From NCBI GenBank assembly GCA_003249935.1, contig QKHT01000208.1:1-37562 (forward strand): 37,562 bases of DNA. Direction: 5' to 3'. Below are positions 15,870 through 26,037 of the stretch, one piece after another; within the stretch, counting starts at the first letter, position 1; each line of letters starts with the position of its first letter. Source of the DNA: Bacteroidota bacterium. GTDB taxonomy: Bacteria > Bacteroidota > Bacteroidia > Bacteroidales > UBA5342. Below the pieces are notes generated by a model. It was not told where the DNA came from, did not search any database, and was given only the letters and a program-made list of their open reading frames with translations. Position numbers and translations under genes: made by a program.

Positions 15870-17564
15870 TCATTCTAATTTGTGAATGTAAATTTGCTTT
15901 GAACCGTACACTTTGATGATGCCAGAAATCAGTCTGTCTTCGTTTTTTAAATAATCTTGTTTTATATAAATATCCGATTTTAAACCGGTAACAATTACCT
16001 TGTAATTATCGGTTTTAACTTCATATTGTTGTTTACTGAACCAAAAACTATATGCCGTATGGGTTACAACTAAAAGATTAAGGCATATCAATGCCGGCGT
16101 TACGTGCGCTAATCGTTTAAGATAAACCATACGAAGCAGAAAAAATACGGACAGGATGAGAATCGGAAATTCCCACTGATAAATATAGATATTGTTAAAT
16201 GTACTGCCCGGTAAGGATGCGAAAAATGCTGCTACTGAACGCATATATGTTAGTAACCAGCCGGTTAATAGGCCCATCCACCCGTTTGGTATATGCAGCA
16301 ATTGGAATAATGCAATGGCTATTCCACCACCACAAATATATCCTACTACGGGCAATGCCAGGATATTCGCGAAAATAAAATATACAGGAAACTGGCCGAA
16401 CCAGTACAATGTAAATGGTATGGTGCCTATTTGTGCCGAAGTAGATACTAAAGCCGTTGATTTTAAATATTTTAATATGCTGTTTTTGTCGTGGCCGAAA
16501 TCTTTGATGGCATCGGATGCAAGAAATATCGAAGCTACAGCCGCATAACTAAGGTAAAAACCCGGCATTGATACCGCACATGGATCAAACATAAGCACTA
16601 AAAAGGCCGAGACAGATATCGTATTAAACGGATTAGGGTTTCGTTTAATAAGTCTGCAAATGCTGAAAAGCGAAAACATAACAACCGCCCGGTTTACCGA
16701 AGGTGATAGTCCGGTAAACATTGCAAATCCGAATAAACAGCCTATTATAAGCAATTGCTGTAGGGTTCTGCCCGGAATATATTTAAATACCTGTGAAAGC
16801 ATCATAAAAATAATACCCACATGTAATCCACTAACTGCGAGTATATGAACTAATCCGGCATTGGAAAAGGCTTGCTTTTCTTCGGGCGAAAGTTCATTTT
16901 TGTCACCGGTGGTCAGTGCCATAAGTACTGCACGATTCTGGTCATTCAAGCCTGCATTGATATATGCATTCTTTACATAGTGTCGGATTTGCGCCATTAC
17001 AACGAACAGATTTGTTTCTGCGCCGTTGGGTATTATTTCATTTTCATTACACCACAATTCGCCAACGAAATGCTGGTTTTGCATATATCTTGCATAATCG
17101 AACTCAAGCAATGTATACGGTTTTTTAAAAGGTTGCAGATTGCCTTTTAGTTTTAGCTTTGAACCGGGAACAAATGTTATTGTACTGTTTGATTTGTACT
17201 TTACGACAATCTTTCTATCAACCCCTTTTAGTATTGCCGGATACGATTTTATGCCAAAACCCTCTTTAGGATAATCGATTATTGTGGCCTCAAATATTCC
17301 CTTTGCCGGCTCGATCGGTTTGTACAAGTCGATGGCAATTTTATGTCGCGAAAATCCTGTGGCTGCAAAAAACAATGCTGTAAAAAGTGGAAAAACCCAG
17401 AAGAAATTCGATAAATAACGCTTTTGTTTTAAAAAGGTGATAAGCAATACCATAAAGCAAAAGACCATACCAATATAACCGGCAATCAGGGGCGTGGATT
17501 CCGGAATGAATGCCATGCCAAATATTAAGAACAGCGAAGGTATCAGAAAAGGTATCTTATTCAT
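15870..17564 (-). CDS. ComEC/Rec2-family DNA internalisation protein, short form
   Basis: This polytopic inner-membrane protein of 564 residues is related to the channel that takes single-stranded DNA into the cytoplasm during natural transformation. N-terminal membrane helices (about 5-70) are followed by a DUF4131-type soluble region (about 75-190). The competence domain follows, with the signature HILAVSGLHVG at 240-250 and many helices to about 500. The C-terminal metallo-beta-lactamase domain of full-length ComEC is missing; only a short beta-rich tail remains. The ATG at 17564 is preferred over an open frame beginning at 17684, because a strong promoter lies between them. Confidence 0.88.
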   Translation of the reverse strand: MNKIPFLIPSLFLIFGMAFIPESTPLIAGYIGMVFCFMVLLITFLKQKRYLSNFFWVFPLFTALFFAATGFSRHKIAIDLYKPIEPAKGIFEATIIDYPKEGFGIKSYPAILKGVDRKIVVKYKSNSTITFVPGSKLKLKGNLQPFKKPYTLLEFDYARYMQNQHFVGELWCNENEIIPNGAETNLFVVMAQIRHYVKNAYINAGLNDQNRAVLMALTTGDKNELSPEEKQAFSNAGLVHILAVSGLHVGIIFMMLSQVFKYIPGRTLQQLLIIGCLFGFAMFTGLSPSVNRAVVMFSLFSICRLIKRNPNPFNTISVSAFLVLMFDPCAVSMPGFYLSYAAVASIFLASDAIKDFGHDKNSILKYLKSTALVSTSAQIGTIPFTLYWFGQFPVYFIFANILALPVVGYICGGGIAIALFQLLHIPNGWMGLLTGWLLTYMRSVAAFFASLPGSTFNNIYIYQWEFPILILSVFFLLRMVYLKRLAHVTPALICLNLLVVTHTAYSFWFSKQQYEVKTDNYKVIVTGLKSDIYIKQDYLKNEDRLISGIIKVYGSKQIYIHKLE

Positions 17565-17584
17565 AATAATTAATTTAAGTGGCA

Positions 17585-17615
17585 CAAATTTATTATATAT
17601 TCCGGAAAAAGACAA
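17585..17615 (-). promoter_or_regulatory. comEC promoter, TTG-N20-TAAATTTG
   Basis: On the minus strand TTG (17613-17615), exactly 20 bp, then TAAATTTG (17585-17592), a full match to the Bacteroidota promoter. It starts in the tail of the hydrogenase terminator and fixes the comEC start at 17564. Confidence 0.75.
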
Positions 17616-17619
17616 TAAA

Positions 17620-17649
17620 AAACGCCGGAAATTTTTACTTCCGGCGTTT
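17620..17649 (-). terminator. Rho-independent terminator of the hydrogenase operon
   Basis: TTCCGGCGTTT and AAACGCCGGAA form an 11-bp perfect stem (17639-17649 with 17620-17630) around an 8-base loop, followed on the minus strand by a T-rich tail. It lies 18 bp after the last hydrogenase gene. Confidence 0.93.
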
Positions 17650-17667
17650 ATTTGAATGGTATTTAAA

Positions 17668-18153
17668 TTACCTGAATTCTGCAAGTATCTCTTCTACTTT
17701 GTCTGCCGAAACGCGTCCGAAAGTTTTTTCACCGACCATTACCACAGGAGCAAGTCCACAGGCACCTACACAACGCAAGCATCCTAACGAAAACTTTCCA
17801 TCGGGTGTGGTTTGACCCACTTCAATGTTCAACTGTTTCCTAAATTCGTCCAACACTTTTTCTGCCCCACGTACATAGCAAGCTGTACCAGTACATATTG
17901 AAATCGGAAATTCGCCTTTGGGAAGCATCGTAAAAAACGAATAGAAAGTCACTACACCAAATACTTTCGCTACCGACATTTTGAGTTCCGAAGCTATTTT
18001 TTCCTGAACCTCTGCCGGCAAATAACCGAAATGTTCCTGAACCTGATGAAGCACGTTGATGAGTTCGGTTTTCGAATAGTTAAAACTCGCGCAAACCTTT
18101 TCGATAAACTCGTTATCTTCCTTTTTTAACTTTATTGTGATGTTATCTGCCAT
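17668..18153 (-). CDS. hydC: NuoE-like subunit of the [FeFe] hydrogenase (HydC)
   Basis: This small subunit of the NAD-linked, electron-bifurcating type [FeFe] hydrogenase has 161 residues. An N-terminal helical part (about 12-60, including YSKTELINVLHQVQEHFGYLP) leads into a thioredoxin-like [2Fe-2S] domain. Ligands are Cys87 and Cys92 (ICTGTACYV) and Cys128 and Cys132 (CVGACGLAPV), as in NuoE. Cys125 is an extra nearby cysteine. It relays electrons close to the HydB flavin. It is the last gene of the operon, 18 bp after hydA and just before the terminator. Confidence 0.93.
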   Translation of the reverse strand: MADNITIKLKKEDNEFIEKVCASFNYSKTELINVLHQVQEHFGYLPAEVQEKIASELKMSVAKVFGVVTFYSFFTMLPKGEFPISICTGTACYVRGAEKVLDEFRKQLNIEVGQTTPDGKFSLGCLRCVGACGLAPVVMVGEKTFGRVSADKVEEILAEFR

Positions 18154-18171: not shown

Positions 18172-19962
18172 TTAACACTCCTTCGAGTCTTCAAATTTAA
18201 TTTTACGGTCGAAATAGTTGGTATGCAACAAGTGATGTGCTTTTTTCGACAAAGGTGCGCCGAGAAACTCTTCGTAAAGCTTGGTGATGTAAGGATTTTC
18301 GTGCGATTTGCGGATTGGTTTTCCGGCATCTTCACGATAAATGGCTTCCATACGGGCTTTAAGAATTTCGCTGTGTCCATGGTGTAATGGTTGGCCACCG
18401 CCACCAATACATCCACCGGGGCACGACATTATTTCAATGGCATGGTATACACATTTGTTTTCGCGGATACACTCAAGCAATTTGCGTGCATTACCCAAAC
18501 CGTGAGCAATACCGATACTGATGGGTGTTCCATCGAAATCAATAACAGCTTGTCTGAACCCTTCAAGCCCCCTAAGTTCGGTGTAGTCGAGTTTTGGAAG
18601 GGGTTTACCCGTATGTAATTCGTACGCAGTACGCACTGCCGCTTCAATTACACCACCGGTTGCCCCGAATATTACACCGGCACCGGACGATTCACCCAAC
18701 GGACGGTCGAAGTCTTCTTCGTGTAACGAATCGAAATCGATATTTGCATGTTTTATCAGTGCCGCCAATTCGCGGGTCGATAATGCGAAATTAACATCAG
18801 GATCGCCATCTACCTTAAACTCATCACGTTGGCATTCGTATTTTTTTGCAAGGCATGGCATGATCGATACCACAATGAGGTCTTCGCGTTTTACACCAAT
18901 TTTGTCGGCAAAATAGGTTTTAGCGATCGAACCAAACATCTGTTGTGGCGAACGTGCCGTCGATGGAATGTCGAGCAGGTCCGGAAATTGTTTTTCGAAA
19001 AAGTTTACCCATGCCGGACAGCACGAAGTAAGAATTGGCATTTTCACTTCTTTGTCGCCACTAAGGTATTTGTTTAAACGACCAAGCAGTTCTGTGCCTT
19101 CTTCCATAATGGTAAGGTCGGCCGCAAAATCGGTGTCAAAAACGTAGTCGAAACCCAGTTCGCGTAAAGCGGCTACCATTTTACCGGTTACCAACGTGCC
19201 CGGTTCTTTATCGAATTCTTCGCCAAGTGCCGCACGTACAGCAGGTGCCGTTTGTACGATAACCGTTTTTGTCGGATCAGCCAAAAGTTTAATAACCTCG
19301 TTGGTATGGTTCACTTCGGTAAGTGCTCCTGTTGGGCATACTGCCACACACTGCCCGCAATAGGTGCATACCGAATTTACAAGGTCCATTTCAAAGGCAG
19401 GTGATACTACGGCGTTAAAACCGCGATGTACACCGCTAAGTGCGCCAACTGTTTGCACTTCGTTACACATCATTTCACACCTGCGGCACATAATGCATTT
19501 GTCCATATCGCGGATAATGCTTGGCGAAAAGTCTTCGCGATAACACGATTGTTCGCCTTGATATCTTATTTCGCGGACTCCCAAACGATGAGCCATCGAC
19601 TGGAGTTCGCAATCGCCCGATTTTACACATGTCAGGCAATCTGCCGGGTGATCCGATAGGATCAGCTCCATTACGGTCTGACGTGCATTAAGAACACGCA
19701 TCGAGTTTGTTTTTATCACCATGCCATCTGTGGCTTCAGTGGCACATGATGGTGCCAGATTACGGCGTCCCTGAACTTCTACGACACAAATACGACAACC
19801 GGCAGGTTTATTTTCAATACCCATGTTGTGCAGCTTCATGTGGCAAAGTGTAGGAATATCTATACCAACCAATTTGGCCGCATCGAGCACGGTGGTCCCT
19901 TTTGGAACCTCTAACTGATGTTTATCTATGGTTAGCGAAATCATTTCTTTATTTTCAGCCAT
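18172..19962 (-). CDS. hydA: [FeFe] hydrogenase catalytic subunit (HydA)
   Basis: This 596-residue catalytic subunit reduces protons or oxidises H2. From the N-terminus: a plant-type [2Fe-2S] domain (Cys40, 56, 59, 73), a His-ligated [4Fe-4S] site (His105, Cys109, 112, 118), two ferredoxin-type [4Fe-4S] clusters (Cys156-166 and Cys199-209), then the H-cluster domain. All three H-cluster motifs are intact: TSCCPAW (Cys314, Cys315), MPCLAKKYE (Cys370) and IMSCPGGCIGGGGQP (Cys514, Cys518). With HydB and HydC this is the trimeric type that couples NADH and reduced ferredoxin oxidation to H2 formation. No extra C-terminal [2Fe-2S] domain is present. The maturases HydE, HydF and HydG are not in the window. 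Confidence 0.97.
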   Translation of the reverse strand: MAENKEMISLTIDKHQLEVPKGTTVLDAAKLVGIDIPTLCHMKLHNMGIENKPAGCRICVVEVQGRRNLAPSCATEATDGMVIKTNSMRVLNARQTVMELILSDHPADCLTCVKSGDCELQSMAHRLGVREIRYQGEQSCYREDFSPSIIRDMDKCIMCRRCEMMCNEVQTVGALSGVHRGFNAVVSPAFEMDLVNSVCTYCGQCVAVCPTGALTEVNHTNEVIKLLADPTKTVIVQTAPAVRAALGEEFDKEPGTLVTGKMVAALRELGFDYVFDTDFAADLTIMEEGTELLGRLNKYLSGDKEVKMPILTSCCPAWVNFFEKQFPDLLDIPSTARSPQQMFGSIAKTYFADKIGVKREDLIVVSIMPCLAKKYECQRDEFKVDGDPDVNFALSTRELAALIKHANIDFDSLHEEDFDRPLGESSGAGVIFGATGGVIEAAVRTAYELHTGKPLPKLDYTELRGLEGFRQAVIDFDGTPISIGIAHGLGNARKLLECIRENKCVYHAIEIMSCPGGCIGGGGQPLHHGHSEILKARMEAIYREDAGKPIRKSHENPYITKLYEEFLGAPLSKKAHHLLHTNYFDRKIKFEDSKEC

Positions 19963-19964
19963 TG

Positions 19965-21758
19965 TTACTTCAGAATTACAGCGTTAAACTTACATTTTTC
20001 CATACAGGCACCACATTTTATACAAATGGCCTGGTTGATAATATGCGGCATTTTTTTCGATCCCGTAATAGCCGCTACCGGACAAGCCCTCGCACAAGCA
20101 GTACAACCGATACAATTTTCTTCGTCTATTTCGTACTTCATTAGAGCACGGCAGTGGGCTGCTTCGCATTTGTGGTTTTCGATATGATCGACATATTCAT
20201 GCCAAAAATTTTCCATGGTCGATAAAATCGGATTAGGCGATGTTTGTCCCAAACCACATAACGATGTGTCTTTGATTACATTGCAAAGGTTTCGTAAATC
20301 AGTAAGGTCCTGCTTTACTCCTTTTCCATCGGTTATTTTGGTCAGAATCTCAAATAATCGCTTATTACCAATACGGCACGGTGCACATTTACCACACGAT
20401 TCTTCAACAGTAAATTCGAGGAAGAATTTGGCCATAGAAACCATACAATCGTCTTCGTCCATTACAATCATACCGCCCGATCCCATCATGGAGCCTGCTG
20501 CAATAAGGTTGTCGAAATCGATTGGGATATCCAGATGCTTTTCGGTTAAACAGCCACCCGATGGGCCTCCGGTTTGAACCGCCTTAAATTTTTTGCCGTT
20601 TTTTATTCCGCCCCCAATCTCAAAAATTACTTCGCGCAAGGTAGTGCCCATAGGTACTTCTATGAGACCCACATTGTTTATTTTTCCTGCAAGTGCAAAA
20701 ACTTTTGTTCCCTTTGATTTTTCGGTGCCAATAGACGCAAACCAGTCGGCTCCTTTGTTTATTATTACAGGGATGTTCGCATAAGTTTCTACATTGTTTA
20801 CAATGGTTGGTTTATTCATGAACCCGCTCTCGGCCGGAAACGGTGGCTTAACGGTTGGTTCACCACGTTTTCCTTCCATTGAATGTATTAAAGATGTTTC
20901 TTCACCACAAACAAATGCGCCGGCACCGTACCGGAGTTCAACATCGAAATCGAAACCAAAATCGAGAATATTTTTGCCCAGCAAGCCGTATTCGCGTGCC
21001 TGACCAATGGCTACCTTGAGCCGTTTAATCGCCAACGGATACTCTGCTCTAATGTAAATTAACCCTTTTGTAGCACCTATGCAGTAACCACAAATGGCCA
21101 TCGCTTCGAGAACCGAATGCGGGTCGCCTTCGAGTATCGACCGGTCCATAAAGGCACCGGGATCGCCTTCGTCGGCATTGCATACCACATATTTCTGATC
21201 GGCATTATTTTTACGCGCCATTTCCCATTTAATACCCGTTGGGAAACCACCACCGCCACGACCACGAAGACCGCTTTTTTTCAAAATGTCTATTACGCCT
21301 TCGGGTGTTATGCTCTGAAGTATGGTGCCAAGTGCACTATAACCATCTCGGGCTATCGACTCTTCGATGTTTTCGGGATTTATAAATCCGCAGTTTCTAA
21401 GCGCAACACGCAACTGCTTTTTGTAAAAGTCCATGTTCTTCGAGTCCGCTACATTTTTGTTTTCTACCGGGTCGAGATACAATAAACGGTTTACTTTCCG
21501 CCCTTTAACAATGTGTTCAGATACTATTTCGGCAGCATCTGAAGCATTTACCTGTGTATAAAAAGTATTGTCGGGCATTATTTTTACAATGGGTCCCTTT
21601 TCGCAAAAGCCAAAACAACCGGTCGAAACCACTTGCACTTCGCTATCGAGTTGAAGCGTTTTAAGCTCGGCTTTTAAATTAGAAACCAAAAGTTCGCTTT
21701 CGGTTGCACGGCATCCTGTACCGCCACAAACCAATATGTCATATTTATAATCTGCCAT
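19965..21758 (-). CDS. hydB: NuoF-like FMN/NAD(H)-binding hydrogenase subunit (HydB)
   Basis: This 597-residue flavin subunit is where NADH is used and bifurcation is thought to occur. An N-terminal thioredoxin-like [2Fe-2S] domain (Cys11, 16, 48, 52) is followed by the NuoF core with GRGGGGFPTG (166-175) and CNADEGDPGAFMDR. Next come the SLBB region and the [4Fe-4S] motif ESCGKCAPCRIG. A C-terminal pair of ferredoxin clusters (CIGCTACARACP and CIKCGACMEKC) is present, as in HydB-type but not Complex I NuoF proteins. The stop is separated from the hydA start by two bases. Confidence 0.97.
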   Translation of the reverse strand: MADYKYDILVCGGTGCRATESELLVSNLKAELKTLQLDSEVQVVSTGCFGFCEKGPIVKIMPDNTFYTQVNASDAAEIVSEHIVKGRKVNRLLYLDPVENKNVADSKNMDFYKKQLRVALRNCGFINPENIEESIARDGYSALGTILQSITPEGVIDILKKSGLRGRGGGGFPTGIKWEMARKNNADQKYVVCNADEGDPGAFMDRSILEGDPHSVLEAMAICGYCIGATKGLIYIRAEYPLAIKRLKVAIGQAREYGLLGKNILDFGFDFDVELRYGAGAFVCGEETSLIHSMEGKRGEPTVKPPFPAESGFMNKPTIVNNVETYANIPVIINKGADWFASIGTEKSKGTKVFALAGKINNVGLIEVPMGTTLREVIFEIGGGIKNGKKFKAVQTGGPSGGCLTEKHLDIPIDFDNLIAAGSMMGSGGMIVMDEDDCMVSMAKFFLEFTVEESCGKCAPCRIGNKRLFEILTKITDGKGVKQDLTDLRNLCNVIKDTSLCGLGQTSPNPILSTMENFWHEYVDHIENHKCEAAHCRALMKYEIDEENCIGCTACARACPVAAITGSKKMPHIINQAICIKCGACMEKCKFNAVILK

Positions 21759-21769
21759 AATCAGCCTGT

Positions 21770-22165
21770 TTATTTGTCGATGGGGTTAAACGTTTGTGGA
21801 ATAATACCATCGACTAATTCGCCTTTTTTAATGTACTTTTCAATAATTTCGTCGGCCACATTTTCGGTTACATTTCCAAAAACAACAGGTGTTTTTCCCG
21901 GAATAGTTACTTCTATTGTCGGTTCGGCATAACAATATCCCATGCAACCGGTTTGAGTTACTAAGGCGGTAATTTGCCTTTTTCTGAGTTCTGTTACAAA
22001 GAAATCCATTGTTTTTTTTGCGCCCGATGCGATACCACATGTGGCCATTGCAACTTTAATTTGCACCACACTGTCGGGATTATCGGCATTTTCGCGCATG
22101 TCCATGCCTTGTCGCAAGTTTGTGCGAAGGTTACGCAAATCGTCGAGAGTCCTAATTTTGGTCAT
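21770..22165 (-). CDS. Thioredoxin-like [2Fe-2S] ferredoxin-type protein (HndB-like)
   Basis: This 131-residue protein has a helical N-terminus (residues 1-32) and a thioredoxin-like ferredoxin domain. The cysteines visible are Cys43 (MATCGIASGA), Cys74 and Cys78 (TGCMGYC). The classic fourth cysteine is absent, which I believe is common in this subfamily. It resembles the small protein next to HydABC/HndABCD hydrogenases and may be an accessory electron carrier or a link between the hydrogenase and the regulatory genes upstream. It lies 11 bp from each neighbour. Confidence 0.85.
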   Translation of the reverse strand: MTKIRTLDDLRNLRTNLRQGMDMRENADNPDSVVQIKVAMATCGIASGAKKTMDFFVTELRKRQITALVTQTGCMGYCYAEPTIEVTIPGKTPVVFGNVTENVADEIIEKYIKKGELVDGIIPQTFNPIDK

Positions 22166-22176
22166 TTTAATTTTTA

Positions 22177-22725
22177 TTATTGTGTTATTTCCAAATCCTT
22201 TAAATTTTCGCGAATCATTTCCGACAGCGCTTCCATAATTTGCGGGTCGCTCATCGGGTGTCCGTCCAAAATCGTTTTAATATCGTGACTTATCAATTGA
22301 TATGTTCCTTTATCCGTTTCGAAATTGAATGTCAGATTCACATTTTCGTACGAAGCTGCCAAGCCCACAACCACACCGGCTACATCGCCCAAGGGTTGTC
22401 TGTTAAGATGCGATAACCTGAAGTTTACAATTACTTTAGTACCTACACCTTCGGTGCTATTGATGGTTAAACTGCCATCGGCCATTTCGGCATTCATTTG
22501 CAAAAGTGGTAACCCGAGCCCCATTTTACGTGTGGTGCGTGTAGTATAAAACGGATCGGTTACTGTTTCGAGCCTGTCGGCAGGAATTCCTGTTCCGTTG
22601 TCTGCTATTTTAATTGTTAACATGTCGTTGGTTCGGCTTTGTACAATCTCAATTGCAAGTTGAGTTGCCTTACCACGAATCGAATTTTCGGCTATGTCGA
22701 GTATATGCAGGCTCAAATCTTTCAT
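22177..22725 (-). CDS. GHKL-type ATPase without a phosphoacceptor domain
   Basis: This 182-residue protein has a histidine-kinase-like ATP-binding domain standing alone. Its N box (LDIAENSI, Asn14), G1 (DNGTGIP, 42-48), F box (DPFYTT, 57-62) and G2 (GLGLPL, 69-74) are all present, so ATP binding is likely. No HisKA dimerisation helix, sensor or membrane segment precedes it. The last 70 residues are an extra tail with no motif I know. The gap to the PHP gene is one base. Function is probably signalling or regulation of the hydrogenase, by context only. Confidence 0.85.
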   Translation of the reverse strand: MKDLSLHILDIAENSIRGKATQLAIEIVQSRTNDMLTIKIADNGTGIPADRLETVTDPFYTTRTTRKMGLGLPLLQMNAEMADGSLTINSTEGVGTKVIVNFRLSHLNRQPLGDVAGVVVGLAASYENVNLTFNFETDKGTYQLISHDIKTILDGHPMSDPQIMEALSEMIRENLKDLEITQ

Positions 22726-22726
22726 G

Positions 22727-23482
22727 TTACACGTTATTTTTATTGAACCCTGTAACTGCCCGACCTTCTGTATGTTGCAACGCTTTTCCCAACTCTTCGA
22801 ATGTGGGTTCAGCCATACTTATAATGGTGTGCCATTTACCAATATCTTCCGGAATATGGGCATCGGACGAACCAATCCAAACCGTGTTTTCGCGTAAATC
22901 GGTACGTTCGGCATAGTTGGTCAAATAACCTTTTTCTGTAACTTCCAATGCATCGTAATACAGATTGTCGGGCACTGTACCTAATTGATGAATCAGCCCG
23001 TTCATTGGCCTGAAAATATGTGCCGGAATAAACAATCCTCCAAGCTGATGAACTTTTTCGGCTATCTCTACAATGCCGGCCCTAAGTGCATTAATGAGCA
23101 GTTTCGGTTCGGAATATATAATGTTTTCGTCTTCGTCGACCTGAACCTGATGCCCGAACCACTCGACGTTGTTGGCAATATTCGGAAGTCGCTCATCCAA
23201 AAATATCTGAAAAATCGCAGCTGTTATGCCATCTTTAAACAGACAAATACAATGAACTTCTTCGCTGGTGGTCACTTCTGTACCAAATAATACAGTTAAA
23301 CCAAGTTGAGCACCATAGCCAGCCACTGCTTCGCACATTCTTGTGGTATTGTGGTCGGTAATGGCAATTATATCTAGCCCTTTGTCCAAAGCCTTATGCA
23401 CTATGGTTTTGGGACTCATGTCCAAGTCGCCACATGGCGACAAAACCGTGTGAATATGCAAATCGGCCCTGTATTGGTTCAT
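22727..23482 (-). CDS. PHP-domain metal-dependent phosphoesterase
   Basis: This is a 251-residue protein of the PHP superfamily. Metal-binding motifs are seen in order: DLHIHT (7-12), ITDHN (41-45), GTEVT with Glu69, His77, PAHIFRP and GSSDAH. They fit a PHP phosphoesterase of the TrpH/YciV kind, which acts on nucleotides or short phosphorylated substrates. Here it lies inside a redox-signalling-like operon, so the substrate could be a phosphoprotein or nucleotide in that pathway. That is inference only. Confidence 0.88.
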   Translation of the reverse strand: MNQYRADLHIHTVLSPCGDLDMSPKTIVHKALDKGLDIIAITDHNTTRMCEAVAGYGAQLGLTVLFGTEVTTSEEVHCICLFKDGITAAIFQIFLDERLPNIANNVEWFGHQVQVDEDENIIYSEPKLLINALRAGIVEIAEKVHQLGGLFIPAHIFRPMNGLIHQLGTVPDNLYYDALEVTEKGYLTNYAERTDLRENTVWIGSSDAHIPEDIGKWHTIISMAEPTFEELGKALQHTEGRAVTGFNKNNV

Positions 23483-23488
23483 TGTTGC

Positions 23489-23821
23489 TTATTGAATAAT
23501 TGCGTATAGTTTTCCGGAAATTTCGAAGGCTCTCTCGTTGGTTGCCAATACCGGAAAACCTTCTTTTATAGCTTTTTCGAGCATATCGGCATCGGGTTTA
23601 TTCCCGTTTACAATTATTACGGCCGAGGCTTCGCGTAACATGGCCACAGCAAGTACATTTTTATGTGTTTGCATCGTTATCCATATTTGGCCATCCTTAA
23701 TGTTTCCCATCACATCCGAAAGTAAATCGCTGGTATATCCTCCGGTTACTTCTGCCCCGATATTTTCGCTGCCACTTAATACATCGAGCGATAGTTGTTT
23801 TACTACTTCAGAAATTTTCAT
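23489..23821 (-). CDS. DRTGG-domain protein (copy 2)
   Basis: This 110-residue protein is made of a single DRTGG-type domain. Its hallmark run is GGYTSDLLSDVMGNIKDG followed by WITMQTHKNVLAVAMLREA. The domain occurs elsewhere with CBS or phosphotransacetylase domains and probably binds a small ligand. Its first codons overlap the end of the HydS-like gene by 14 bp, suggesting coupled translation. It is a diverged paralogue of the first gene of the operon. Confidence 0.85.
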   Translation of the reverse strand: MKISEVVKQLSLDVLSGSENIGAEVTGGYTSDLLSDVMGNIKDGQIWITMQTHKNVLAVAMLREASAVIIVNGNKPDADMLEKAIKEGFPVLATNERAFEISGKLYAIIQ

Positions 23822-25199
23822 TTTTTGCTCCTTTTTTGCTACAATCTTTATTGAGTCTGTCTGTTCCCCAAACTTTTTCTATGATTTTAAATGCGTGGTT
23901 GTGACTTAGTTTATTGTGCTTTTCCATTTGTCGTTGCATAAATATGCAGTGCGAAAGGTTGGCTTTTCGATTTACAATATCGGTTGCCAAAGCCATACAA
24001 GTAGGTGCACCACATGCGCCACAATCGATGCCCGGAAGAAAACACATTAAATCGCGGGTTTTTTCCATTTTTTTCATCGCCACATACCTGTCGTTATCCA
24101 AAACAATCATGCGTGGTTCAATTTTTTGCTTCAAAGCCAAATTTTGTTTCAGATAAACAGACTGATCATTAAACGATTTACGTACAACGCTCTGGTTAAT
24201 TATAAGCTGTTTTTTATTGTATCGTGCCCATTTATTGAGTCGTTCTACGGTTAAAAAGCGATTTTCAGGAATTAATATCCCGCCGGCACACGATTCGTCG
24301 CAGGCCCTTAGTTCCAGAAAATCAATATTTTTAACTTGCTCTGTTTCTACAAGTTCTAAAAATTCAATTACGTTATGTATCCCGTCTATGCACAACGAAC
24401 GACCTTTTACATGTTTGGCTTCACCATTGGTAAGGCAGTATCTCAGTGCTTTACTTTCAAGAAGTTCGGGTTCGAGTACAACTTTTTTATTTGGTTTTCC
24501 CTGCTTAATAATTCTGAAAACTTTGTTGAATAAAAAATCGAGATTAATTACCCCGTTAATAGGCGATTCGAAATCGCCGACCGGACTATTGACTGCTGCA
24601 ATTTTGGCTGCACAAGGTGTAATATAAAATACGCCTATTTTTTCGGGTTGAACCCCTTCGTCCGAAAGTTTTTTTCGATAATAATTTGCCGCCAAATCGA
24701 GTGGGGCGATAATTTTTGAGATGTTATCCACTAACGACGGAAATTTAACCTGTATGAGTCGTACAATGGCCGGGCAAAACGACGAAATAACGGGTTTCTC
24801 CGAATCTATATCTGCAACAATATCATTAATCGCATCAAACAAAATGTCCACACCGCCTTCTATTTCATAAACATGGGTAAAGCCCAAAGCTTGCATCGCA
24901 TGATGTATTTCGTACAATGAAACATGGTCCGGAAACTGACCAAAAAAAACACTTGGTAATATGGCAACCCTGTATTCAAATTTTTCGACCAATGCAATAT
25001 CATCGTCGGTAACCGAGTAGGCTCTTACCGGACATACCCTGAAGCATTCACCACAATCTACACAATGGTCGCTGTGAAGTGTGGCCTTGCCGTTCACAAT
25101 TCTTATTGCTTCGGTCGGACAAGCTTTCATGCAATGGGCACATCCAATGCACTTTTCCTGATCAATTTTTATGGCATGAAAAAAAAACGGATTATCCAT
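23808..25199 (-). CDS. Putative sensory [FeFe]-hydrogenase-like protein (HydS-like)
   Basis: This is a 463-residue iron-sulfur protein. Two ferredoxin [4Fe-4S] clusters lie at the N-terminus (Cys17-27 and Cys46-56). A hydrogenase large-subunit domain follows, then an RnfB-type four-cysteine motif near the C-terminus (Cys386, 393, 396, 401, with Cys418 close by). The H-cluster motifs are altered: SSFCPA replaces TSCCPA (Phe141 where the proton-transfer cysteine normally is, Cys142 kept), TPCAAK replaces MPC..K..E (Cys196 kept), and ACDESCAGG replaces CPGGC..GG (Cys300 and Cys304 kept). Four cluster ligands therefore survive while catalytic residues are lost, as in putative sensory hydrogenases such as Thermotoga maritima HydS. 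A redox or H2 sensor is the most likely role. Confidence 0.88.
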   Translation of the reverse strand: MDNPFFFHAIKIDQEKCIGCAHCMKACPTEAIRIVNGKATLHSDHCVDCGECFRVCPVRAYSVTDDDIALVEKFEYRVAILPSVFFGQFPDHVSLYEIHHAMQALGFTHVYEIEGGVDILFDAINDIVADIDSEKPVISSFCPAIVRLIQVKFPSLVDNISKIIAPLDLAANYYRKKLSDEGVQPEKIGVFYITPCAAKIAAVNSPVGDFESPINGVINLDFLFNKVFRIIKQGKPNKKVVLEPELLESKALRYCLTNGEAKHVKGRSLCIDGIHNVIEFLELVETEQVKNIDFLELRACDESCAGGILIPENRFLTVERLNKWARYNKKQLIINQSVVRKSFNDQSVYLKQNLALKQKIEPRMIVLDNDRYVAMKKMEKTRDLMCFLPGIDCGACGAPTCMALATDIVNRKANLSHCIFMQRQMEKHNKLSHNHAFKIIEKVWGTDRLNKDCSKKGAKNENF

Positions 25200-25615
25200 T
25201 ACTTATTCAAAAAAACTTTCATTTCGACTCGTGTTCCTTTATTTACCTCACTGGTTACATTCAATTCGTCGGTATTGTCCTTTATATTCGGAAGTCCCAT
25301 GCCTGCTCCAAACCCCATTTGTCGTACCATAGGCGAAGCCGTAGAGTAACCTTTTTGCATTGCAAGATCAATATCGGCTATACCGGGGCCCTCATCTTCG
25401 AGAATCATATGTATAAAGTCCGGTTCAAGATCTATTTTTATTGAACCTTTATCGGCATGAGCCACAATATTTACTTCGGCTTCGTAAAGTGCTATTACGG
25501 TGCGTTTTATTATTTGTGGCTCAATACCCACCTGCTTCATTATTTTTTTTATCTGGCTCGATGCCAATCCTGCATTGGTAAAATCGCCGCCCTCTATTTT
25601 ATATTCAAAACGCAT
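25199..25615 (-). CDS. RsbW/SpoIIAB-like GHKL ATPase
   Basis: This 138-residue protein is of the anti-sigma/serine kinase type. The N box reads ALYEAEVNIVAHA (Glu45, Asn49), G1 reads DEGPGI (74-79) and the ATP lid/G2 region reads GFGAGMGLP (101-109). No second domain is present. Such proteins phosphorylate or sequester a partner in partner-switching pathways, but no sigma factor or STAS antagonist is encoded nearby. Its TAA stop overlaps the ATG of the HydS-like gene (TAATG), so the two are probably made in fixed ratio. Confidence 0.87.
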   Translation of the reverse strand: MRFEYKIEGGDFTNAGLASSQIKKIMKQVGIEPQIIKRTVIALYEAEVNIVAHADKGSIKIDLEPDFIHMILEDEGPGIADIDLAMQKGYSTASPMVRQMGFGAGMGLPNIKDNTDELNVTSEVNKGTRVEMKVFLNK

Positions 25616-25631
25616 GTAATATCAGATTTTT

Positions 25632-25979
25632 TTAATAAACCGGTTCCATACCTGCATTGCGTAAAACGCCTGCACAATAAAACAACGATTTAGTTGTAGT
25701 TAGTAATACGATATTGTTTTCCTTCGCCAAAGCACACATCTCGGGTGTTACTTTTTTTCCACGTACAAATAATATCTGACCAATATCGGCCATTTCTGCG
25801 GTTCGTATGGTTTGTAAATTAGATAAACCAGTAATAAATAGTAGATTATCGACACTCAACGTAAGCACGTCGCTCAATAAATCGGAGGCAAAACCAAATT
25901 TTACCTCACGTTTCATTTGCTCTATTCCACAAATAACTTCTGCTTCTGTAAGTGTTGCGACTTCATTTAAACTCAACAT
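25632..25979 (-). CDS. DRTGG-domain protein (copy 1), first gene of hydrogenase operon
   Basis: This 115-residue protein is a paralogue of the other DRTGG gene: FGFASDLLSDVLTLSVDN parallels TSDLLSDVMGNIKDG, and ENNIVLLTT parallels EGFPVLAT. The ATG at 25979 is used. A TTG at 26015 would add 12 residues but lies upstream of the -7 box, so it cannot be on the predicted transcript. Function is unknown; ligand binding in a signalling module is the likely role. Confidence 0.82.
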   Translation of the reverse strand: MLSLNEVATLTEAEVICGIEQMKREVKFGFASDLLSDVLTLSVDNLLFITGLSNLQTIRTAEMADIGQILFVRGKKVTPEMCALAKENNIVLLTTTKSLFYCAGVLRNAGMEPVY

Positions 25980-26001
25980 CTGCTCATTCTGAAATTTGCT
26001 G

Positions 26002-26009
26002 CAAAGATA
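26002..26009 (-). promoter_or_regulatory. -7 box of the hydrogenase operon (TATCTTTG)
   Basis: Exact TAnnTTTG on the minus strand, 22 bp before the ATG of the first DRTGG gene. No TTG is at the expected -33 position, where a palindrome lies instead, as expected if the promoter needs or is blocked by a regulator. Confidence 0.6.
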
Positions 26010-26013
26010 ATTC

Positions 26014-26037
26014 AATTAATGAAAATTTTCGCTAATT
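26014..26037. promoter_or_regulatory. 24-bp imperfect palindrome at the hydrogenase promoter
   Basis: Two 12-bp arms, AATTAATGAAAA and (reverse strand) AATTAGCGAAAA, match at 10 of 12 positions around a perfect GAAAATTTTC core. The site ends 5 bp upstream of the -7 box and covers the -33 region. It does not fit the Rex or CRP/FNR consensus closely. The regulator is unknown. Confidence 0.45.

Follow-up and report, generated by a model that had tools for sequence, protein, structure and literature searches.

The hydS gene in the window (the whole stretch analysed here, 37,562 nucleotides of contig QKHT01000208.1 from a Bacteroidota bacterium) encodes a protein whose sequence fits group D (M2e) of the putative sensory [FeFe] hydrogenases, in a Bacteroidota variant. 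The kind of protein is known. New are the census of this variant, in which Phe or Tyr at the position of the group A relay Cys accompanies Arg or Lys at that of CpI Met497, the co-occurrence of hydS with a cassette of regulatory-type genes, and a cassette that lacks hydS.

The hydS operon and the domains of HydS

hydS is the third gene of a ten-gene operon read in one direction, with gaps of -14 to 18 nt. The genes, in operon order with the features of hydS placed below it, are as follows.

25632..26015, minus strand: DRTGG-A, DRTGG-domain protein, gene 1 of the operon (Pfam; the DRTGG-B search also gave weaker relatives)
25199..25615, minus strand: HATPase-A, a lone GHKL ATPase that resembles SpoIIAB/RsbW at scores under the curated cut-offs, with a 1-nt overlap with the start of hydS
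23808..25199, minus strand: hydS, predicted group D (M2e) [FeFe] hydrogenase-like protein of 463 aa, ATG to TGA, with F141 and R298
25032..25151, minus strand: 2x[4Fe-4S] ferredoxin motif at the HydS N-terminus (Cys 17-56; sequence and Pfam Fer4), 8/8 Cys in 105/105 orthologs
24768..24785, minus strand: SSFCPA of hydS, with F141 in place of the group A relay Cys and C142 an H-cluster ligand by alignment
24603..24620, minus strand: TPCAAK of hydS, with T194 at the CpI Met353 position, C196 a ligand, and K199 at what we take to be the CpI Lys358 position
24384..24431, minus strand: T257 to D272 of hydS, with T257, E260, and D272 of the proposed group D proton route (PMC10407848)
24288..24314, minus strand: ELRACDESC of hydS, with E296, R298 at the Met497 position, and the ligands C300 and C304
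23940..24038, minus strand: PF04060 domain at the HydS C-terminus, RnfB-like Cx2Cx4Cx16C (Pfam), Cys in 105/105 orthologs
23489..23821, minus strand: DRTGG-B, with a 14-nt overlap with the end of hydS
22727..23482, minus strand: PHP-domain protein with HxH, TDHN, PAH, and SDAH motifs
22177..22725, minus strand: HATPase-B, second lone GHKL ATPase (Pfam; GHKL motifs)
21770..22165, minus strand: 2Fe-2S thioredoxin-like ferredoxin (NCBIfam fdxn_Clost, 36.6 bits, below the cut-off of 150)
19965..21758, minus strand: hydB, NuoF-like subunit of bifurcating hydrogenase (Pfam/NCBIfam)
18172..19962, minus strand: hydA, group A [FeFe] hydrogenase with the relay Cys (NCBIfam FeFe_hydrog_A6, 891 bits, over the cut-off of 765)
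17668..18153, minus strand: hydC, NuoE-like subunit (Pfam/NCBIfam)
17620..17649, minus strand: terminator-like hairpin just past hydC, a 13-pair stem followed by a T-rich stretch (consensus match only; the region has 17 such sites against 12.2 in shuffles)

GHKL ATPase motifs are present in both HATPase-A and HATPase-B, and Pfam found no HisKA domain in either. At 15870-17684, an ORF with a TTG start call shares sequence with the hydC end and the hairpin; this ComEC-like gene probably starts further inside.

The eight ferredoxin ligands and the RnfB-like motif named in the original prediction were both recovered, at Cys 17, 20, 23, 27, 46, 49, 52, and 56 and at Cys 393, 396, 401, and 418, respectively. 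Pfam matched Fe_hyd_lg_C (84 bits, residues 89-307) and PF04060 (50 bits, residues 388-420) in addition to the ferredoxin domains. The cluster cysteines C142, C196, C300, and C304 are all present, the last two in the motif C300-D-E-S-C304, and T194-P195-C196 is followed by two Ala and K199, with no Glu downstream of the motif. No PAS domain was found in HydS by Pfam at E 1e-3, a scan that is weak by itself, with three group C-like proteins (L034, L033, and L026) also giving no PAS match at E 1e-5; the 43 residues after PF04060 are too short for a PAS domain. Group C sensory hydrogenases, to which Ruminococcus albus HydS belongs, carry a C-terminal PAS domain.

Land et al. (PMC8163306) describe group D/M2e proteins as lacking both a PAS domain and the relay Cys (CpI C299), as having Ser or Thr in place of Met353, and as carrying two clusters at the N-terminus and a Cx2Cx4Cx16C motif at the C-terminus. 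The window HydS has the four H-cluster Cys, both sets of cluster motifs, and the hydroxyl residue T194, without PAS. The group D protein TamHydS of Thermoanaerobacter mathranii resembles HydS in domain order, Cx2Cx4Cx16C, lack of PAS, loss of the relay Cys, the hydroxyl residue at the Met353 position, an E252/D265/E289/S249-type route, and a location upstream of bifurcating HydABC. The window lineage, which is of Bacteroidota, differs from it in having Phe/Tyr rather than Ala at 137 and Arg/Lys rather than Leu at 291 (TamHydS numbering). Group C (M2f) proteins such as TmHydS (PMC10055695) share the cluster set and the putative sensor role with the window HydS, whereas they have a long C-terminal extension, with Ala at the relay position in TmHydS and Cys in L034, L033, and L026. 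A SpoIIE-type phosphatase adjoins the group C-like HydS in L034 and L033. Beside its group D protein, genome G000 carries a group C-like HydS at G000:C179:64591-65868 (L026:694-2400), which has a long C-terminal extension and keeps the Cys (SQCCPA) that the group D protein lost; another, group B-looking PF02906 protein lies about 2 kb from it.

Membership in group C was ruled out by the missing PAS match, the short C-terminal end after PF04060, and the tree described below, and membership in group B was rejected on the domain and profile scans and the tree. Group A HydA (CpI and the hydA product of the window) has the H-domain family and the ligands in common with HydS, whereas the group A relay Cys, Met353, Met497, and CPGGC are all replaced in HydS; F141, TPC, CDESC, a score of 87 bits with the group A profile TIGR02512 against a cut-off of 405.95, and the tree ruled this group out.

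Active-site residues and phylogeny of HydS

F141 had been predicted to stand at the first Cys of TSCCP, TPC to replace MPC without its downstream Glu, and CDESC to replace CPGGC, and the same register was obtained by phmmer, hhalign, and multiple alignment. With phmmer against HydA2 (PDB 7qv7), SSFCPA lay on TSCCPA and TPC on MPC. Profile-profile alignment (hhalign) with seven group A/B HydA proteins, at a probability of 99.8, set F141 on the first Cys of SCCP and, in the same register, T194 on the Met that opens MPC and R298 on the Met that precedes the CPGGC-motif Cys by two residues; the multiple alignment of HydS agreed with both on the motif register. R298 and the group D proton-route residues are observations beyond those of the original prediction. 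The CpI position numbers (Met353 and Met497) follow PMC8163306 and PMC10055695. An AlphaFold2 model of HydS from a five-row alignment had a mean pLDDT of 40.5 and was discarded as unusable.

Conservation was counted in the ortholog set A3. Matches were obtained in 112/393 genomes of the window's order, and 103 of these together with L021 and L035 make up 105 proteins, which are 40-64% identical to the window HydS. Left out of A3 were G295, G479, G414, G317, and G513, with a stop within the matched range, and the partial proteins G007 and G375, both of which show F. The type-2 proteins G268 (by eye) and G343 (the same as L170, counted apart) stand outside the 105. L022:8001-9332, a Draconibacterium MAG hydS with Tyr at the relay position, was excluded from A1-A3 because of its three in-frame stops, which reflect decay or assembly error; L032 was also unused.

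Position 141 is F in 96 and Y in 9 of the 105 aligned Bacteroidota orthologs and never A, L, I, V, or S, and position 298 is R in 102 and K in 3; the pairs are F-R (94), Y-R (8), F-K (2), and Y-K (1). By this alignment, the aromatic residue at the relay-Cys position is not due to chance, being present in 105/105 orthologs. Position 168, which we take to correspond to CpI Gln325, is D in 96, N in 4, E in 4, and Q in 1, and position 194 is T in 98, S in 6, and A in 1. The ferredoxin and C-terminal Cys and the H-cluster ligands, including the four cysteines that had been noted as remaining in HydS, are kept in 105/105. C304 is likewise found in 105/105, K199 in 103/105, and P82 in 104/105; the equivalents of these three presumably hold the diiron site in known enzymes.

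In TamHydS, the proposed group D proton route is E252-E289-S249-D265 (Cabotaje et al., PMC10407848). The window HydS has E260 (105/105 orthologs), E296 (105/105), T257 (T or S in 100/105), and D272 (105/105) at matching spacing, a match that rests on this spacing, L031, and the published numbers, with TamHydS itself outside the alignments. E260 fell on the Glu of GGVIEA in hhalign and on Val in the multiple alignment, the latter in agreement with the published account that group A has Val at the E252-equivalent position (PMC10407848), and we regard the E260 column as less certain than the other aligned columns. The pocket looks constrained, since the ligand Cys, E260, D272, E296, T/S257, and K199 are conserved across the orthologs. 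With the group D route apparently present (T257, E260, D272, and E296), the missing relay Cys alone is no proof of poor proton access, and the slow turnover that had been deduced from Phe alone does not follow. Nor does loss of the relay Cys, a published hallmark of groups C and D, serve as a subgroup marker. Since this loss and the extra C-terminal cluster are both published for the two groups (PMC8163306 and PMC13104023), they do not define a new subgroup, and the RnfB-like cluster was rejected as a new feature; the distinct subgroup that had been proposed is supported for Bacteroidota as one with F or Y at 141 and R or K at 298.

FastTree analysis of 115 H-domains gave supports of 0.994 for all group D, 0.939 for the main type, and 0.877 for type 2 plus L031. 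IQ-TREE analysis of 35 sequences, including 24 main-type proteins drawn at random, the window HydS, and three of the five type-2 proteins, gave UFBoot values of 100 for C plus D, 90 for all D, 100 for the main type, and 99 for type 2 plus L031. Both trees placed the protein outside group A, in line with its description as HydS-like in the original prediction. The window clade groups with Bacillota L031 and the type-2 proteins (UFBoot 90) in a tree that is without TamHydS or any other named group D reference, and the group C-like L034, L033, and L026 are sister to D.

F occupies the relay position in 5/5 type-2 HydS of the phylum (L029, L030, and L170 aligned; L169 and L172 by eye), and E260 is lost in the three aligned ones. 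These five proteins have H, D, or R instead of C20, the second Cys of the first ferredoxin motif; a C20A variant of TamHydS was defective (PMC13104023), with a correspondence by number and not by alignment. L031 (Subdoligranulum, Bacillota), the one group D protein from outside Bacteroidota that was compared, has Ala and Asp at the 141 and 298 positions and keeps E260 and D272. The fall of this single Ala-bearing Bacillota sequence with type 2 gives a weak indication that aromatic residues at this position do not mark a single clade. Across wider samples of the phylum, few genomes carry HydS of this type (3/198 at E 1e-40). The mixed profile A2 matched 52/395 genomes, five of which score apart as group D (G000, G303, G231, G239, and G727), and a scan of viral contigs with A1 gave 43 pattern matches and zero relatives.

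Gene cassette and maturases in HydS genomes

Co-occurrence was examined in the genome of the window and those of 59 relatives (60 genomes, 58 families). HydS of this type was found in 19 of them. Strong matches to DRTGG-B, PHP (E<1e-30), HATPase-A (E<1e-40), and HATPase-B (E<1e-12) fell in an identical set of 20 genomes, 19 of which have HydS (hypergeometric 1e-14, phylogeny ignored). At E 1e-3, two further genomes were added for PHP and four for HATPase-A, all weak, with the HATPase-B search cut at 1e-12. By hand-checked positions, hydS is immediately preceded by HATPase-A in 19/19 genomes (the gap reaching about 380 nt in G001) and immediately followed by DRTGG-B in 17/19. A high-scoring HydA was found by hand within 7 kb of HydS on the same contig in 11/19 genomes, and in one more across a contig break (12/19).

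The twentieth genome, G034 (L036:4570-7784, G034:C100), has DRTGG-A, HATPase-A, DRTGG-B, PHP, and HATPase-B in order, with hydS cleanly absent; 15 nt separate the HATPase-A and DRTGG-B frames at the place of hydS, and NuoE-like, NuoF-like, and hydA genes adjoin. A gene with PF06971 and PF02629, a pair that we take to be that of the redox repressor Rex, also adjoins this cassette.

The surroundings of HydS differ among lineages. Pfam matched DRTGG, HATPase_c_2, PHP, HATPase_c, NuoE, and NuoF near HydS in L031; the gene at the DRTGG-B location had no Pfam match. In L172 (G727), the cassette is flanked by heterodisulfide-reductase-like (Hdr-like) genes on one side and NuoE/NuoF on the other, and in L043 (G231) by an HdrA-like gene and NuoE/NuoF. 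The type-2 HydS of L170 (G343) has a GHKL ATPase gene on one side and genes for NuoE, NuoF, and a molybdopterin oxidoreductase on the other. In L170 and L043, Fe_hyd_lg_C did not match the additional large subunit scanned beside NuoE/NuoF. Parabacteroides distasonis has the cassette without hydBAC. L035 (NZ_OY725779.1) is a "plasmid" record of this species with gyrA and the HydS cassette, and may be a piece of chromosome. With the cassette found beside other NAD-linked genes or without hydBAC, its role may be wider than HydABC. In clostridial M2e operons, e.g., Cthe_0335 with Cthe_0340-0342, four locus tags separate the M2e gene from HydABC in 6/6 entries seen (PMC3561251 Table 6), and four genes likewise lie between hydS and hydBAC in the window, a comparison by tag arithmetic and not by gene identity. 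These operons are of Bacillota, for which active-site residues were compared for L031 only (Ala and Asp).

HydF and HydG were both over the cut-off in 13/19 HydS genomes, and neither was in 4/19; the latter four also have other PF02906 matches. In G003 (99% complete), no protein other than HydS matches PF02906, yet HydF and HydG are kept over the cut-off; this suggests HydS as their client, which would receive a diiron site. Since G006 has HydF and HydG with zero PF02906 matches, the missing HydA of G003 could be an assembly gap. More widely, 7/37 genomes with [FeFe] hydrogenase domains are without HydF/HydG over the cut-off (G001, G005, G011, G024, G045, G051, and G052), some of them 98-99% complete. 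With maturase absence this common, and with genome gaps, the argument for an H-cluster from HydF/HydG is limited.

Possible role of HydS and alternative explanations

In the reading that we prefer and consider fairly probable, HydS is a group D putative sensory [FeFe] hydrogenase that would be slowly reduced by H2 and would signal through HATPase-A to HydABC. The sensor role, which is plausible and was already suggested in the original prediction, and the partner are what we infer here. A complete H-cluster would be installed by HydEFG-type machinery and slowly reduced by H2 (or low potential), with protons leaving via E260-E296-T257-D272. The bulky aromatic residue at 141 would close the group A path and hold the azadithiolate amine toward E260, while R298 would shift the diiron potential. 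Reduced HydS would then change shape, its state would be read by contact with HATPase-A, encoded directly upstream, and the signal would be relayed by HATPase-B and the DRTGG and PHP proteins and would govern HydABC of the same operon. As to known proteins, TamHydS is slow, H2-responsive, and turns over H2 (PMC8163306). Restoring Cys at 137 alone in TamHydS gave lower currents, explained by the amine of the azadithiolate being drawn off the E252 route (PMC11803613), and A131C in TmHydS also lowered activity (PMC10055695); our own supposition is that a bulky aromatic residue at 141 might act in the opposite way to this Cys at TamHydS 137 and favour E260. The C-terminal cluster of TamHydS was not reduced by H2 (PMC13104023), and we therefore do not propose this cluster as a wire. 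Points against the sensor reading include a possible exclusion of the diiron site by Phe and Arg filling the pocket, the presence of HydA near HydS in 12/19 genomes, and the 4/19 HydS genomes in which neither HydF nor HydG exceeds the cut-off.

A first alternative, which we think unlikely, is a pseudo-hydrogenase with the cubane and ferredoxin-type clusters only, in which Phe and Arg fill the diiron space and redox state rather than H2 is sensed. The two bulky residues do stand where the residues of known enzymes lie next to the azadithiolate, HydF and HydG are below the cut-off in four HydS genomes, and related HydS also adjoin NAD-linked enzymes other than HydABC. However, C304, K199, and P82, residues that we presume to hold the diiron site, are nearly or fully invariant, as is E260; G003 keeps both maturases with HydS as its only PF02906 match; and the four maturase-less genomes hold other PF02906 matches too. 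A further explanation, that HydS is a slow catalyst or electron-transfer subunit that docks on HydBC or NuoEF-type modules and passes electrons among H2, ferredoxin, and NADH at a low rate without signalling, fits with hydBAC adjoining here, with NuoE, NuoF, and a large subunit lacking Fe_hyd_lg_C in L170 and L043, with NuoE, NuoF, and Hdr-like genes in L172, and with the H2 turnover of TamHydS (PMC8163306). The regulatory-type cassette proteins in the same genomes as HydS, the cassette without hydBAC in P. distasonis, and the absence of any other PF02906 match in G003 make it, in our judgement, decidedly improbable.

The aromatic residue itself might be a neutral lineage marker, any hydrophobic residue sufficing as Ala does in TamHydS, with no functional effect. 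Sensory proteins in HydDB vary at the relay position (about 43% Ala, 17% Cys, and about 10% each of Pro and Ser, with about 20% unnamed; PMC10055695), and Bacillota L031 has Ala with a similar cassette. We nevertheless give this explanation little credence, with F or Y in 105/105 Bacteroidota orthologs at 40-64% identity, together with R or K at 298. The preferred sensor reading can be extended, tentatively and with more doubt than confidence, to a distinct H-cluster pocket in which F/Y141 and R/K298, in place of the relay Cys and Met497, would commit the azadithiolate to Glu260, and HydS would gauge H2 with almost no turnover; together with both HATPases and the DRTGG and PHP proteins, it might form a modular signalling cassette for NAD(H)-linked bifurcating enzymes generally, not only HydABC.

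Phe at the relay-Cys position may already be contained in a supplementary figure of PMC10055695. No paper naming it was found in the open-access article text consulted, a result that does not prove its absence. In the available text of the literature searched, including PMC8924675, PMC12578642, and PMC10102598, we did not find the F/Y plus R/K census, the cassette co-occurrence, or the HydS-less cassette; a search for DRTGG with hydrogenase gave nothing relevant, and one for HydS with a PHP domain gave none. With its F/Y plus R/K pocket, this variant offers a natural experiment at the two second-sphere positions targeted by mutagenesis in CpI, TmHydS, and TamHydS, and G034, which kept the cassette with hydS cleanly absent, is a natural test case. 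The signalling partner of group D hydrogenases is named as future work in the conclusion of the 2026 TamHydS paper (PMC13104023). Co-occurrence offers a candidate for this partner: HATPase-A, the lone GHKL ATPase whose gene immediately precedes hydS in 19/19 genomes.
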